The position numbers and the translations under genes are program-made. A stretch of 64,000 nucleotides of DNA from Halorubrum salinum. GTDB taxonomy: Archaea; Halobacteriota; Halobacteria; Halobacteriales; Haloferacaceae. Positions 34,738 to 41,279 of this stretch are shown piece by piece; within the stretch, counting starts at the first letter, position 1; every line of letters begins with the position of its first letter. Below the pieces are notes generated by a model that was not told the DNA's origin, searched no databases, and was given only the letters and a program-made list of their open reading frames with translations. The stretch spans positions 434,001-498,000 of the forward strand of contig NZ_JANHDO010000001.1 in NCBI RefSeq assembly GCF_024494575.1. Direction: 5' to 3'.

Positions 34738-36243
34738 ATGTGCATGGACGTGGCCCCGGATATCGACGCCGCGGCCGGCGAGTCCGTCGTCGTGATCGGC
34801 GGCGGATTCGGCGGCCTCTCGACCGCGTGTTACCTCGCAGACGCCGGCGCGGACGTGACCCTCTTGGAGAAGAACGAACAGCTCGGCGGACGCGCGAGTC
34901 GGCTCGAAGCCGACGGGTTCCGGTTCGACATGGGGCCGTCGTGGTACCTGATGCCCGACGTCTTCGAGCGCTTCTTCGGCCACTTCGGCCGCTCGCCCGA
35001 GGAGTTCTACGAGCTGGAGCGGCTCGACCCGCACTACCGCGTGTTCTGGAAGGACGGGGACCGGGTCGACGTGCTTCCGGACCGCGAGGCGAACAGGCAG
35101 CTGTTCGAGGAGTACGAGCCCGGCGCGGGCGAGGCGTTCGACGCGTATCTCGAGGAGGCGGAACGCACCTACGAGATCGGGATGGAACACTTCGTGTACG
35201 AGGACCGCCCGCGGCTGCGAGACTACGTCGACAAAGACGTGCTCCGGTACTCGTGGGGGCTCTCGCTTTTAGGCAAGATGCAGGGGCACGTCGAGGGGTA
35301 CTTCGACCACCCCAAGCTCCAGCAGCTGATGCAGTACACGCTCGTCTTCCTCGGCGGCTCGCCGCACAACACCCCGGCGCTGTACAACCTGATGAGCCAC
35401 GTCGATTACAACATGGGCGTCTACTACCCGGAGGGCGGGATCGGCGCGGTCGTCGACGGGATCGTCGAGCTCGGCGCGGACCTCGGCGTGGAGTACGTCA
35501 CCGACGCCGAGGTGACGGGGATCGAGGGCCGCCGGGGCGCGTTCGCGGTCGACACCGCCGCCGGGGACCGACACCTCGCGGATCTCGTCGTCTCGGACGC
35601 CGACTACGCGCACACCGAGCAGGAACTGCTCCCGAAACACAAGCGACAGTACAGCGAGGCGTACTGGGAGTCGCGGACGTACGCCCCCTCCGCGTTCCTG
35701 CTGTACCTCGGCGTCGAAGGCGACGTACCCGAACTCGCCCATCACACGCTCGTGTTGCCGACGGACTGGGACGGGCACTTCGCGCAGATCTTCGACGAGC
35801 CGTCGTGGCCGGACGACCCCGCCTACTACCTCTGTGTGCCCTCGAAGACGGACGATACGGTCGCGCCCGACGGGCACAGCAACCTCTTCGCGCTGGTCCC
35901 GATCGCGCCGGGGTTAGAGGACACTCCCGAGCTTCGCGAGGAGTACCGAGAGCTGGTGCTCGATGACATCGCGGCGAACGCCGACACCGACCTGCGCGAC
36001 CGGATCGTCTTCGAGGAGACGTTCTGCGTCGACGACTTCGCCGACCGGTACAACAGCTATCGGGGGAGCGCGCTCGGGCTCGCACACACCCTGCGTCAGA
36101 CCTCGCTGCTCCGGCCGCCGCATCGCTCCGAGGCGGTCGACGGGCTCTACTTCACGGGCTCGACGACGACGCCCGGAATCGGGGTCCCGATGTGTCTCAT
36201 CAGCGGCCAACTGACCGCGGAGTCGATCTCGGACTCGATCTGA
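34738..36243 (+). CDS. crtD: Carotenoid 3,4-desaturase CrtD (bacterioruberin pathway)
   Basis: A 501-residue FAD-dependent desaturase of the phytoene-desaturase family. The dinucleotide-binding motif VVIGGGFGGLSTACYLADAG is near residues 19-38, followed by LGGRASRLEADGFRFDMGPSWYLMP. The C-terminal motif GLYFTGSTTTPGIGVPM is the family FAD contact. In the known order crtD-lyeJ-cruF it introduces the 3,4 double bonds during conversion of lycopene to bacterioruberin. GTCTTTATACTT at about 34710-34721 gives a start at 34738, with a second Met two codons later. The next gene starts 15 bases after the stop. Confidence 0.9.
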   Translation: MCMDVAPDIDAAAGESVVVIGGGFGGLSTACYLADAGADVTLLEKNEQLGGRASRLEADGFRFDMGPSWYLMPDVFERFFGHFGRSPEEFYELERLDPHYRVFWKDGDRVDVLPDREANRQLFEEYEPGAGEAFDAYLEEAERTYEIGMEHFVYEDRPRLRDYVDKDVLRYSWGLSLLGKMQGHVEGYFDHPKLQQLMQYTLVFLGGSPHNTPALYNLMSHVDYNMGVYYPEGGIGAVVDGIVELGADLGVEYVTDAEVTGIEGRRGAFAVDTAAGDRHLADLVVSDADYAHTEQELLPKHKRQYSEAYWESRTYAPSAFLLYLGVEGDVPELAHHTLVLPTDWDGHFAQIFDEPSWPDDPAYYLCVPSKTDDTVAPDGHSNLFALVPIAPGLEDTPELREEYRELVLDDIAANADTDLRDRIVFEETFCVDDFADRYNSYRGSALGLAHTLRQTSLLRPPHRSEAVDGLYFTGSTTTPGIGVPMCLISGQLTAESISDSI

Positions 36244-36257
36244 GCGTGGGTGATCCC

Positions 36258-37157
36258 GTGACCGACACCGACGCGCCGACGGTCGCCGACGAACGCGGGG
36301 AGGGGCTCGCGGACCTCCTCCGGTACCTGCTGGTGTTGTCGCGCCCGCGCTTCTGGCTGTACCTCGCCGGTCCCGTCGCGGTCGGGGTCACCTACGGTAT
36401 CGGCGACGTGAGCGGACTGTTCACACCCGTCACGGTCGGGCTCGCGGCCTACTTTCTCGTGCCGGCGAACGTCTACCTCTACGGCGTCAACGACGCGTTC
36501 GACGCCGACATCGACGAACTGAATCCGAAGAAGGACGACCGCGAGGCGCGCTGGCGGGGGTCCCGAACCGTCGCGCTCGCGGTGGTCGCGGCGGGGGTCG
36601 TCGGTCTCGTGACGTTCGCGATCACCCCGCGGGTCGCGTGGCCGTACCTCGTCGGCTTCTTCGCGCTCGGTGCGGCCTACAGCGCGCCGCCGCTGCGGTT
36701 CAAGACCACGCCGTTCGCGGACTCCGTCTCGAACGGGCTCTACATTCTCCCCGGCGCGGCCGCGTACGCGACCGCCGCGGGGGCGCACCCGCCGCTCGCG
36801 GCGCTCGCCGGCGCGTGGCTCTGGACGATGGGGATGCACACGTTCTCCGCGATCCCCGACATCGAGCCGGACCGCGCCGCGGGGATTCGCACGACTGCGA
36901 CGCTTCTGGGCGAGAGTCGGACGTACGCCTACTGTCTCGGCTGCTGGACCGCCGCGGCGGCCGCGTTCGCCGCCGTCGACTACCGACTCGGCGCGCTGCT
37001 CGGGGTGTACCCGGTCTTCGTCGTCTGGGTCGCGACGTCGTCGGTCGCCGTCGACCGCGCGTACTGGTGGTTCCCGGCGCTGAACACGGTTATCGGGACG
37101 CTGCTCGCGATGGGCGGACTCTGGCGCGTCTACCCGATCACGGAGGCGCTCGGATGA
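36258..37157 (+). CDS. lyeJ: Lycopene elongase/1,2-hydratase LyeJ (UbiA superfamily)
   Basis: A 299-residue UbiA-type prenyltransferase with about eight helices. The first Asp-rich motif is NDAFDADIDELNP (NDxxDxxxD) and the second is DIEPDRAAGIRTTA (DxxxDxxxG). It adds C5 isoprene units to both ends of lycopene and hydrates them, forming the C50 skeleton. The likely start is GTG 36258; another GTG at 36246 is possible. It sits between crtD and cruF with a 4-base overlap into the latter, the arrangement proven for bacterioruberin synthesis in Haloarcula. Confidence 0.92.
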   Translation: MTDTDAPTVADERGEGLADLLRYLLVLSRPRFWLYLAGPVAVGVTYGIGDVSGLFTPVTVGLAAYFLVPANVYLYGVNDAFDADIDELNPKKDDREARWRGSRTVALAVVAAGVVGLVTFAITPRVAWPYLVGFFALGAAYSAPPLRFKTTPFADSVSNGLYILPGAAAYATAAGAHPPLAALAGAWLWTMGMHTFSAIPDIEPDRAAGIRTTATLLGESRTYAYCLGCWTAAAAAFAAVDYRLGALLGVYPVFVVWVATSSVAVDRAYWWFPALNTVIGTLLAMGGLWRVYPITEALG

Positions 37158-38098
37158 CCGACGAGAGCGGGTCGACCGCGACCGACGGGACCGCACCCGA
37201 CGGTTCCGCCTCGTCGACCGCGAGCGACGCGTCCCCGCAGTCCGCCGCCTCGCGGGCGGACGCCGTCCGCGCCCGGCTCCCGGAGACACGGAAAGGGGCT
37301 CAACGCCGCCTCGACCGGCTCGTCCGGGAGAACCGGTTCACCATCGCCGTGTTGTTCCCGCTCGTCGGCGCGGTCGCGCTCGTCGGCAGCGCCGAGGGAT
37401 GGGTGCCCGATCCGATCGCGTTCAACCCGTGGTTCGTGCTGTTCGGCGTGCTGGTGATGCGCTCGCCGCTCGCCGTCGGCGTGCTGCCGTCTATCGACCG
37501 TCGCGCGCTCGGCTGGGTCGGCGTCCTCGTCGCGTACACCTACGCGATCGAGTTCGTCGGCGTCGCGACCGGGTGGCCGTACGGGGGATTCGAGTACACC
37601 GTGAGCCTCGGGCCGATGCTCGGCGGCGTGCCGCTCGCGCTCCCCGTCTTTTTCATTCCGCTCGTCGTCAACGCGTACCTGCTCTGTCTGTTGTTGCTCG
37701 GGCCGCGGGCCGAGCACGGATGGCTCCGGCTCGCGACCGTGATCGCCGCCGTCGTCGCGATGGACGTTGTCCTCGACCCGGGCGCGGTCGCGCTCGGCTT
37801 CTGGGACTTCGGCGGCGGCGCGTTCTTCGGCGTGCCCCTCTCGAACTACGCCGGCTGGGTGCTCTCCGCGACGGTCGCGGTCGTCACCCTCGACCGGGCG
37901 TTCGCGCTCTCGGACCTCCGCGCCCGCCTGCGCGACTGCGAGTTCATGCTCGACGACATGGTGAGCTTCGTCATCCTCTGGGGCGGGATCAACCTCTTTT
38001 ACGGGAACCTCGTCCCCGCCGTCGTCGCCGCCGCCTTCGGCGTCGGTCTCGTCCGCGCGGACCGGTTCGACGCCCGCCTGTTCGTCCCGTGGGCGTGA
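37154..38098 (+). CDS. cruF: Bisanhydrobacterioruberin hydratase CruF
   Basis: A 314-residue membrane protein with about seven helices after a 60-residue Ser/Thr/Asp-rich disordered N-terminus. Conserved features of the CruF/carotenoid 1,2-hydratase group are AYTYAIEFVGVATGWPYGGFEY and VLDPGAVALGFWDF with Asp and Trp residues in the membrane. It adds water to the terminal isoprene units, giving the tetraol bacterioruberin that reddens the cells. ATG at 37154 overlaps the lyeJ stop (ATGA), completing the three-gene operon. Confidence 0.92.
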   Translation: MTDESGSTATDGTAPDGSASSTASDASPQSAASRADAVRARLPETRKGAQRRLDRLVRENRFTIAVLFPLVGAVALVGSAEGWVPDPIAFNPWFVLFGVLVMRSPLAVGVLPSIDRRALGWVGVLVAYTYAIEFVGVATGWPYGGFEYTVSLGPMLGGVPLALPVFFIPLVVNAYLLCLLLLGPRAEHGWLRLATVIAAVVAMDVVLDPGAVALGFWDFGGGAFFGVPLSNYAGWVLSATVAVVTLDRAFALSDLRARLRDCEFMLDDMVSFVILWGGINLFYGNLVPAVVAAAFGVGLVRADRFDARLFVPWA

Positions 38099-38213
38099 GC
38101 GGTTCGCCCTGCGGGCGCGAGCGCCGCCGTCTGGCTCGCTTGACATACGTCTCGTCGTCACCGGCCGCCGCCACTCGAAACCGCTTATATATCGCCCGTT
38201 CATCGATCGATCC

Positions 38214-38267
38214 ATGAGCGTCCGCGCGGCCGCCGTTCCCCGGACGGCGGCGGAGGGAGCGAGATGA
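38214..38267 (+). CDS. Leaderless upstream ORF overlapping the dacZ start codon
   Basis: A 17-codon ORF, MSVRAAAVPRTAAEGAR, whose ATG is 26 bp after the TATA centre (CTTATATAT, 38184-38192), so the mRNA should begin at or next to this codon. Its stop overlaps the dacZ ATG (ATGA at 38264-38267). A GGAGG site at 38252-38256, inside the uORF, is correctly spaced (7 bases) for dacZ. Ribosomes finishing this ORF would be delivered to dacZ. It is a candidate leader peptide or coupling device; only the RNA arrangement is visible. Confidence 0.5.
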   Translation: MSVRAAAVPRTAAEGAR

Positions 38268-38821
38268 GTCGCCTCGCCATCGAGTACGGATCACACGATC
38301 GGGTCAGGGAGATAATCGATCGCCTGACCTACTGTACGGAGCACGTCAGCCGGTCGTTCGACGGCTGGGACGAGCCGCACGCCAAGGGCCCGGGGCTGTA
38401 CTTCGCCGTCGTCGCGGACCGCGAGTACGGCGCGTACGCCGACGCGATGGGCGACAATCGCTGGCCCCGAGACGGCTGTCGGTCCGTCTTCGAGGAGGAC
38501 GAGTTCGTCGACGCGGCGGAGGCCGTGAGCCTCGAACAGGACGGCGGCATCGTCGTCGCCGCCGACGGCGAGATCGAATCGCAGATGGTTCGGTTCCGCG
38601 ATCTGGGAACGCGGAGCGGCGAGTCGGACCTCGTCGACGACGTGAGCTACGAGCCGTGGATGGGGTCCAGACACATGAGCGCGATCGAGACCTCGGTCCG
38701 CCCGGAGGTCGTCGCGACGGTCACCCTGAGCGAGGAGACGGGCCGCGTGAGCATCTTCCGCGACGGCGACGCGGAGTCGCTGGAGCGCGACGAGCTCGGC
38801 GGGCCGTGGCGCGTCGACTGA
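38264..38821 (+). CDS. dacZ: Diadenylate cyclase DacZ (DisA_N domain)
   Basis: A 185-residue protein consisting of a single DAC domain, which joins two ATP into cyclic di-AMP. The catalytic motifs are present in variant form: DGG at residues 93-95 instead of DGA, and RHM at 136-138 (MGSRHMSAI) instead of RHR. TLSEETGRVSIF at about 154-165 is the family's closing strand. Size and single-domain layout match the archaeal DacZ of Haloferax. An internal TLTYCTEHVSRSF region has no known role. It is preceded by a leaderless 17-codon ORF and a GGAGG site. c-di-AMP often controls K+ and osmotic balance. Confidence 0.82.
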   Translation: MSRLAIEYGSHDRVREIIDRLTYCTEHVSRSFDGWDEPHAKGPGLYFAVVADREYGAYADAMGDNRWPRDGCRSVFEEDEFVDAAEAVSLEQDGGIVVAADGEIESQMVRFRDLGTRSGESDLVDDVSYEPWMGSRHMSAIETSVRPEVVATVTLSEETGRVSIFRDGDAESLERDELGGPWRVD

Positions 38822-39056: not shown

Positions 39057-41279
39057 ATGAACGAAGTTCAACTCGAAGTGGCGAAGGCGTACCCGAACGA
39101 TTCGGGGCGCGGTATCGCCCGACTCGACCCCGACACGCTGTTGCACCTGAAGCTCTCGCCCGGCGACATCATCGAGATCGAGGGCGCGGAGACCACCGCC
39201 GCGAAGGTGTGGCGCGCCGACCGACAGGACTGGAACACGGACACCGTCCGCGTCGACGGATTCACCCGGCAGAACGCCGACGTGGGCATCGGCGAGCGCG
39301 TCACGATCCGGAAGGCGGAGGCGGAGAAGGCCGACAAGCTCGTCTTGGCACCGCCGGAGGAGGCGTCGGTCCAGTTCGGCTCCGACGCCGCAGGCATGGT
39401 GAAACGCCAGATCCTCAAGCGGCCGGTCGTCGAGCGCGACATCGTCCCCGTGATGTCGAGCACGAACCACCCGTTCATGCGGTCGCCGGGGCAGGCGATC
39501 CCGCTCATCGCGGTCGAGACGGAGCCGGAGGGCGTCTGTCTCATCACCGAGGACACCGAGGTCGAACTGCGAGAGGAGCCGATCTCCGGCTTCGAGAAGA
39601 CCGGCGGCGGGATCACCTACGAGGACATCGGCGGGCTCCAGTCTGAGATCCAGCGCGTCCGCGAGATGGTCGAACTGCCGATGAAACACCCGCAGATATT
39701 CTCGAAGCTCGGGATCGAGCCGCCCCAGGGCGTCCTGCTCCACGGCCCGCCCGGCACCGGGAAGACCCTGCTCGCGAAGGCCGTCGCCAACGAGACGTCG
39801 GCGTCGTTCTTCTCCATCGCCGGCCCCGAGATCATCTCGAAGTACTACGGCGAGTCCGAACAGCAGCTCCGCGAGATATTCGAGGACGCCAAAGAGGAGA
39901 GCCCGAGCATCATCTTCATCGACGAGCTCGACTCGATCGCGCCCAAACGCGAGGACGTCACGGGCGAGGTCGAGCGCCGCGTCGTCGCCCAGCTCCTGAC
40001 GATGATGGACGGACTGGAGACGCGCGGGCAGGTGATCGTCATCGGCGCGACGAACCGCGTCGACAGCGTCGATCCCGCGCTCCGTCGTCCGGGCCGGTTC
40101 GACCGCGAGATCGAGATCGGCGTCCCCGACGAGGTGGGCCGCAAGGAGATCCTCCAGATCCACACCCGCGGGATGCCGCTGTCTGACGACGTGAGCTTAG
40201 ATCACCTCGCCGACGAGACGCACGGCTTCGTGGGAGCCGACATCGAGAGCCTCACCAAGGAGGCGGCGATGAAGGCGCTGCGCCGGTACCTCCCAGAGAT
40301 CGACTTAGACGAAGAGGAGGTGCCGCCGAGCCTGATCGACCGGATGATAGTCAAGCGCGACGACTTCTCGGGAGCGTTAAACGAGGTCGAGCCCTCGGCG
40401 ATGCGCGAGGTGCTCGTCGAGCTTCCGAAGATCTCGTGGGACAACGTCGGCGGGCTCTCCGAGGCCAAACAGCAGGTGAAAGAGTCGGTGGAGTGGCCGC
40501 TCTCCTCCCCGGAGAAGTTCGACCGGATGGGCGTCGACGCGCCGAAGGGCGTCCTGCTGTACGGTCCCCCCGGCACCGGGAAGACGCTGATGGCGAAGGC
40601 CGTCGCCAACGAGACGAACGCGAACTTCATCTCGGTGCGCGGCCCGCAGCTGCTCTCGAAGTGGGTCGGCGAGTCGGAGAAGGCGATCAGACAGACCTTC
40701 CGCAAGGCCCGGCAGGTGAGCCCGACGATCATCTTCTTCGACGAGCTCGACAGCCTCGCTCCCTCGCGTGGTCAGGAGATGGGCAACAACGTCTCAGAGC
40801 GCGTCGTCAACCAGCTACTGACGGAGCTCGACGGGTTAGAGGACATGGGTGACGTGATGGTGATCGGCGCGACCAACCGCCCCGACATGATCGACCCCGC
40901 GCTCCTCCGGTCCGGTCGGTTCGACCGCCTCGTGATGATCGGGCAGCCGGACCAGGAGGGCCGCGAGCAGATCCTCGACATCCACACCGAGAACACCCCG
41001 CTCGCGCCCGACGTGAGCCTCCGCGAGATCGCGGAGATCACGGACGGCTACGTCGGCTCCGACTTGGAGGGGATCGCCCGCGAGGCCGCCATCGAGGCGC
41101 TGCGCGACGACGACGACGCCGAGGAGGTCGAGATGAAACACTTCCGGCGCGCGATGGAGTCGGTGCGGCCCACGATCAACGAGGACATCCTCGCGTACTA
41201 CGAGGAGGTCGAAGAGCAGTTCAAGGGCGGCGGCGGCGAGTCGCTCCGCGACACCGGCGGCCGGATCGGCTTCCAATAA
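39057..41279 (+). CDS. Cdc48/VAT-type AAA ATPase
   Basis: A 740-residue double-ring AAA+ unfoldase. It has an N-terminal double-psi barrel ([22 protein letters not shown]), then D1 with Walker A near residue 229 ([12 protein letters not shown]) and Walker [10 protein letters not shown] near 284, and D2 with Walker A near 503 and Walker [10 protein letters not shown] near 557. It extracts or unfolds proteins for the proteasome (PAN-independent route). The C-terminus ([21 protein letters not shown]) lacks the hydrophobic tail of eukaryotic p97. CTTATTCC at 39010-39017 gives a short leader containing GAGG before the ATG. Confidence 0.94.

Follow-up and report, generated by a model that had tools for sequence, protein, structure and literature searches.

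The gene for a diadenylate-cyclase-like (DAC-domain) protein of the archaeal genus Halorubrum is preceded by a short upstream ORF (uORF) that opens where a leaderless transcript would be expected to begin and closes on a stop codon overlapping the start of the main gene. Sequence comparison among the orthologues indicates that this architecture is not a product of chance and that selection keeps the overlap itself. We consider it likely that the uORF is a leaderless, ribosome-loading fore-cistron that feeds the DAC-domain gene by termination-reinitiation.

The locus lies on the plus strand of the window, a stretch of 64,000 nt from Halorubrum salinum (contig NZ_JANHDO010000001.1, positions 434,001 to 498,000). 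A BRE-like element, CGAAAC (38176..38181), stands directly 5′ of a TATA box, CTTATATAT (38184..38192, centre 38188). Babski et al. 2016 (PMC4983044) give CGAAA as the haloarchaeal BRE motif, and count 72% of the protein-coding transcripts of H. volcanii as leaderless. The uORF (38214..38267; 17 codons, encoding MSVRAAAVPRTAAEGAR) begins with the ATG at 38214. This lies 26 nt past the centre of the TATA box, the distance at which a leaderless start would be expected. Within it is an SD-like GGAGG (38252..38256), 7 nt before the main start, and its TGA (38265-38267) forms with the main ATG at 38264 the coupling tetramer ATGA (38264..38267). The main cistron (38264..38821) encodes a 185-aa DAC-domain protein. 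The TATA box, ATG, 17-codon ORF, TGA/ATG overlap and GGAGG had all been pointed out in a sequence-only reading of this DNA, and each is present at the position given there. Directly upstream of the gene (36192-38098) are genes for a UbiA-type prenyltransferase and a carotenoid-biosynthesis protein (PF04240); the downstream neighbour (39057-41279) we take, from its sequence, to encode a CDC48-type AAA ATPase.

An orthologue of the DAC-like protein was present in all 52 genus genomes searched. The upstream region was readable in 51 of these, the copy in G034 being cut by a contig end. In 51/51 an ATG or GTG is found 25-27 nt past the TATA position, the distance at which, judged by sequence, a leaderless transcript would have its start codon; and in 51/51 the ORF from that start runs for 14-26 codons to a stop overlapping the main start. 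These ORFs are short (below ~50 codons) and directly upstream of a gene of annotated size. The overlap is of +4 type in 41 genomes, with the RTGA tetramer being ATGA in the window, and of 8 nt in the other 10. The arrangement is that of haloarchaeal termination-reinitiation pairs, which have a 1-nt or 4-nt overlap and usually an SD before the downstream start; a G-rich motif stands in the relatives at about the same place as the GGAGG of the window. The block of BRE and TATA box differs between relatives at 9.7% of sites, against 49% just upstream. The TATA box is clear in most of the 51 genomes, degenerate in G041 and weak in G049, and both of the latter keep the architecture. In the G049 leader (L057 / L170) the start region of the uORF is directly duplicated (GTGATCCATCATATGACCGATCAGGGGA twice), and the several in-frame starts all end at the ATGA overlap. 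The sequence-only reading had proposed that absence of the uORF from relatives keeping the gene would count against it; start position and overlap are instead kept throughout. Relatives of the protein outside Halorubrum are mostly without a uORF, so that for this gene the leader is a feature of the genus.

To gauge chance, the leader between TATA box and main start was shuffled with dinucleotides kept. The architecture arose in 0.8% of shuffles for the window genome and in 1.7% on average, and was observed in 51/51 genomes against ~0.9/51 expected from the shuffles; these are not 51 independent trials, because the genomes are related. The figures bear on the reading of the gene as an ordinary leadered one, with a ~50-nt 5′-UTR, a chance ATG and direct SD initiation at 38264. 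The GGAGG does lie at a good distance from that ATG, the single genome alone is compatible with chance, and a first survey for the architecture yielded 3 genes, where control spacings gave 0-2. Conservation in 51/51, with the overlap kept through changes of length, argues the other way, as does the finding that SD was not used so in the H. volcanii 5′-UTR tested (PMC3986360). By comparison of the genomes an ordinary leadered gene is already strongly disfavoured, and we give it hardly any credence.

Mapped onto a tree of the main gene, the leader has undergone a minimum of 17 changes in length, and the stop still always overlaps. Leader lengths range from 40 to 77 nt and leave a remainder of 1 or 2 on division by 3, never 0, so that uORF and main ORF are always in different frames. 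A few lineages switched to a +8 overlap (2 changes or more), with a stop at that position in every case. In 9 of the 10 genomes concerned this stop is a TAG made by ATGAGTAG, and the Ser2 codon is AGT in 9/9 of them, compared with 8 AGT and 30 AGC elsewhere (P = 1.8e-5, kinship of genomes ignored); the tenth, G043, has a TAA via ATGCGTAAC. Frameshifting or an N-terminal extension of the main protein was ruled out, as the uORF is out of the main frame in every one of the 51 and does not use the same frame in all clades. Since the overlap is kept through changes of length and frame while the peptide is nearly free, the sequences point to selection for a stop that overlaps the start, not for a particular frame or peptide.

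In no clade does the uORF body show synonymous changes in significant excess. The GTG clade shows 21 synonymous changes where 15.8 are expected (p = 0.08, weak constraint at most), and the MET and MSVQ clades show fewer than expected. Codons 2-7, at what would be the mRNA 5′ end, differ between relatives at 10.7% of sites, compared with 30% for the spacer between TATA box and start and 27% for the uORF between codon 7 and the SD. Such a pattern would be expected if the opening stretch of a leaderless mRNA matters for initiation, and the peptide or the RNA may still have some role of its own. A functional small peptide, or an attenuator-like sensing leader peptide that regulates the DAC-domain protein, would draw on the conservation of N-terminal codons inside clades (VTDGGNR, MSVR/MSVQ, MET), on the weak excess in the GTG clade, and on the N-x-C-P motif that the leader of an Amt gene (below) retains across several genera. 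It would have to accommodate three unrelated peptides before the same gene in different clades, a body that varies freely, and clades other than GTG that are without purifying selection. We hold it unlikely; the uORF peptide seems mostly dispensable, and the upstream cistron apparently lacks a product of its own.

In the reading that we prefer, transcription from the promoter at 38176-38192 would yield an mRNA with its 5′ end at, or 1-2 nt from, ATG 38214. A ribosome would initiate directly on this leaderless end, read the 17 codons, stop at the TGA and reinitiate at the overlapping ATG, aided by the GGAGG within the uORF, and so produce the DAC-domain protein; transcription start, uORF translation and coupling at this locus are what we infer from the sequence. 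The fore-cistron would be needed because haloarchaea do not start via SD in the 5′-UTR, and a leaderless micro-cistron would permit an SD near the 5′ end because the ribosome would reach it while translating. Termination-reinitiation is established in haloarchaea, as is leaderless initiation in Haloferax. An SD lying within an upstream ORF has been proposed to aid reinitiation in H. volcanii, where 9/9 overlapping pairs tested were strictly coupled, the contribution of the SD being variable (PMC6728339), and in a review (PMC12548453) the delivery of ribosomes is given as a function proposed for a short ORF. The sequence-only reading had a leaderless short ORF handing ribosomes on to the next gene and thereby setting c-di-AMP synthesis through dacZ: the first part gains support from the 51/51 conservation and the many length changes, and the second falls with the identity of the gene, given below.

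Coupling might also act by unfolding, if translation of the uORF opened a structure hiding the SD, to which a new ribosome then bound. The window genome offers such a structure, a CCGCCGTTCCCCGGACGGCGG hairpin in which the SD region is largely base-paired (mean unpaired probability 0.14). RNA folding of the 51 leaders gave no conserved structure: compared with shuffled versions they are not more strongly folded (mean z +0.7, none below -1.5), and across these genomes the SD is a median 51% unpaired. Nor does an SD recruit free subunits in the H. volcanii 5′-UTR tested (PMC3986360). Unfolding is thus very improbable beside termination-reinitiation by the ribosome that has read the uORF.

A search for the same architecture covered ~1.66 of the 2.73 Mb of the window genome (G000), with 1,339 genes called by a simple home-made gene caller. 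The strict scan for TATA box, short ORF and overlap gave 5 genes at a spacing of 23-28 against 1-4 at control spacings; with an SD required, there were 6 spacing-hits at 26-28 nt against 0.24 per spacing elsewhere. The hits were compared with relatives, leaving out C2:308379 and C2:276204, and three more conserved cases were found: genes for an Amt ammonium transporter (architecture at 12/12 loci in relatives), an amino-acid permease-Usp protein (14/15) and an ACT-domain protein (12/12). Two looser candidates of the survey, C1:193230 (lycopene-cyclase-like domain) and C1:412572, were dropped as not conserved (0/12 and 0/10), and serve as a useful negative control.

The Amt leader ORF (G000:C1:61143, minus strand, L135; loci L247-L258, L295-L315) ends at the Amt start. 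Its peptide reads VIQHMNT[ND]E... in Halorubrum and carries the N-x-C-P motif in several other genera; by strict criteria the leader was found in 13/21 further loci outside Halorubrum, each from a different genome. The permease leader ORF (G000:C1:93950-94036, L136; loci L172-L186) encodes MIHARRVTTARGGPP and has in the window genome a 39-bp in-frame insertion; at locus L186 an unrelated leader ORF likewise ends at GTGA. The ACT-domain leader ORF, MQTGTTPARR... (G000:C2:~90034-89975, minus strand, L222; loci L259-L270), has counterparts of 19-58 codons with a variable body, always ending at GTGA and mostly with a GGAGGTGG-like SD. We suggest tentatively that leaderless micro-cistrons may be a general haloarchaeal way of translating SD-preceded genes, a proposal about as open to doubt as to belief, with the balance slightly towards doubt. 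If it is true, some genes annotated as leadered with SD would be second cistrons, because an SD does not recruit ribosomes to haloarchaeal 5′-UTRs. Their ribosomes would come from a leaderless ORF missing from the annotation, in which the overlap and not the peptide is what conservation maintains, as seen for Amt in many genera. This would explain the purpose of an SD near the 5′ end in organisms where SD is unused in 5′-UTRs, and a class of transcripts would need its annotation corrected. The loci offer natural, conserved material for testing archaeal reinitiation.

A close likeness is to the leaderless coupled small ORFs of mycobacteria (Shell et al. 2015, PMC4633059), of which the Halorubrum leader appears from its sequence to be the haloarchaeal counterpart. 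There the ORF runs from the transcript 5′ end to an RTGA overlap, conservation in some cases extends to the architecture but not to the peptide, and ribosome delivery was proposed. The mycobacterial ORFs are bacterial and backed by transcription-start and ribosome data, whereas the Halorubrum leader, traced by comparison of genomes, belongs to an archaeon with TATA/BRE promoters and no SD use in 5′-UTRs. Termination-reinitiation pairs of H. volcanii (Huber et al. 2019, 2023; PMC6728339, PMC10666635) share the ATGA overlap and the SD at the end of the upstream ORF, and their downstream gene depends strictly on upstream translation; they are ordinary genes (enzyme subunits, ribosomal proteins), unlike the upstream cistron of 14-26 codons here. 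Babski et al. (PMC4983044) list H. volcanii uORFs of 15-31 aa upstream of normal genes, but in 5′-UTRs of 150-250 nt only, compared with the Halorubrum leader of ~50 nt; stop/start overlap and conservation do not figure in the section concerned. In a bicistronic design for Corynebacterium (PMC10367133) a leaderless fore-cistron and an SD drive the second cistron, both being reported necessary for strength, although this design is synthetic and bacterial. An earlier description of conserved leaderless coupled uORFs in haloarchaea was not found in the open-access literature, to which the search extended (subscription papers lay outside it).

The downstream gene had been labelled dacZ in the sequence-only reading, but it is a DAC-domain paralogue, the genome's true DacZ lying elsewhere. 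The 185-aa product scores 25.3 bits with Pfam DAC, where the cut-off is 27, and is far below the NCBIfam cut-offs for CdaA, CdaM and CdaS. In a diverse alignment of the family each of the 26 members matches Pfam DAC, so the homology is real. Profile matches in the PDB are all diadenylate cyclases, at weak significance (E 0.08-0.9), and the predicted structure has a mean pLDDT of 34, from a shallow alignment. The RHM motif is common to the DAC-like protein and DacZ; DGG replaces the DGA motif and is invariant in 27 aligned Halorubrum orthologues, while the most distant members of the family have DGA. The true DacZ (G000:C1:~966.6-967.5 kb, L058) has 273 aa, some 90 residues more, with the DGA motif and 70.2 bits for Pfam DAC, and the gene adjoining it is, as we read its sequence, presumably MscS-like. 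Its gene has a promoter-like TTATA ~26 nt before the ATG and no uORF, and looks plainly leaderless. Haloarchaeal dacZ is found in an operon with mscS (Braun et al., PMC6741144). The window gene shares with DacZ (HVO_1660) distant homology over the DAC nucleotide-binding domain and differs in locus; its size, its sub-cut-off Pfam DAC score, DGG in place of DGA and the lack of an adjacent mscS rule out that it is dacZ. The idea of c-di-AMP dosage control therefore falls, and the Haloferax data on DacZ essentiality and overdose (PMC6741144) are not transferable to this gene. This gene should not be called dacZ: haloarchaea have a second, widespread DAC-like family (~185 aa; L061-L100), which is distinct from DacZ and of which some genomes carry more than one copy. 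A record named, perhaps wrongly, Halobellus captivus (L130) also contains a Halorubrum-like copy (78% identity).
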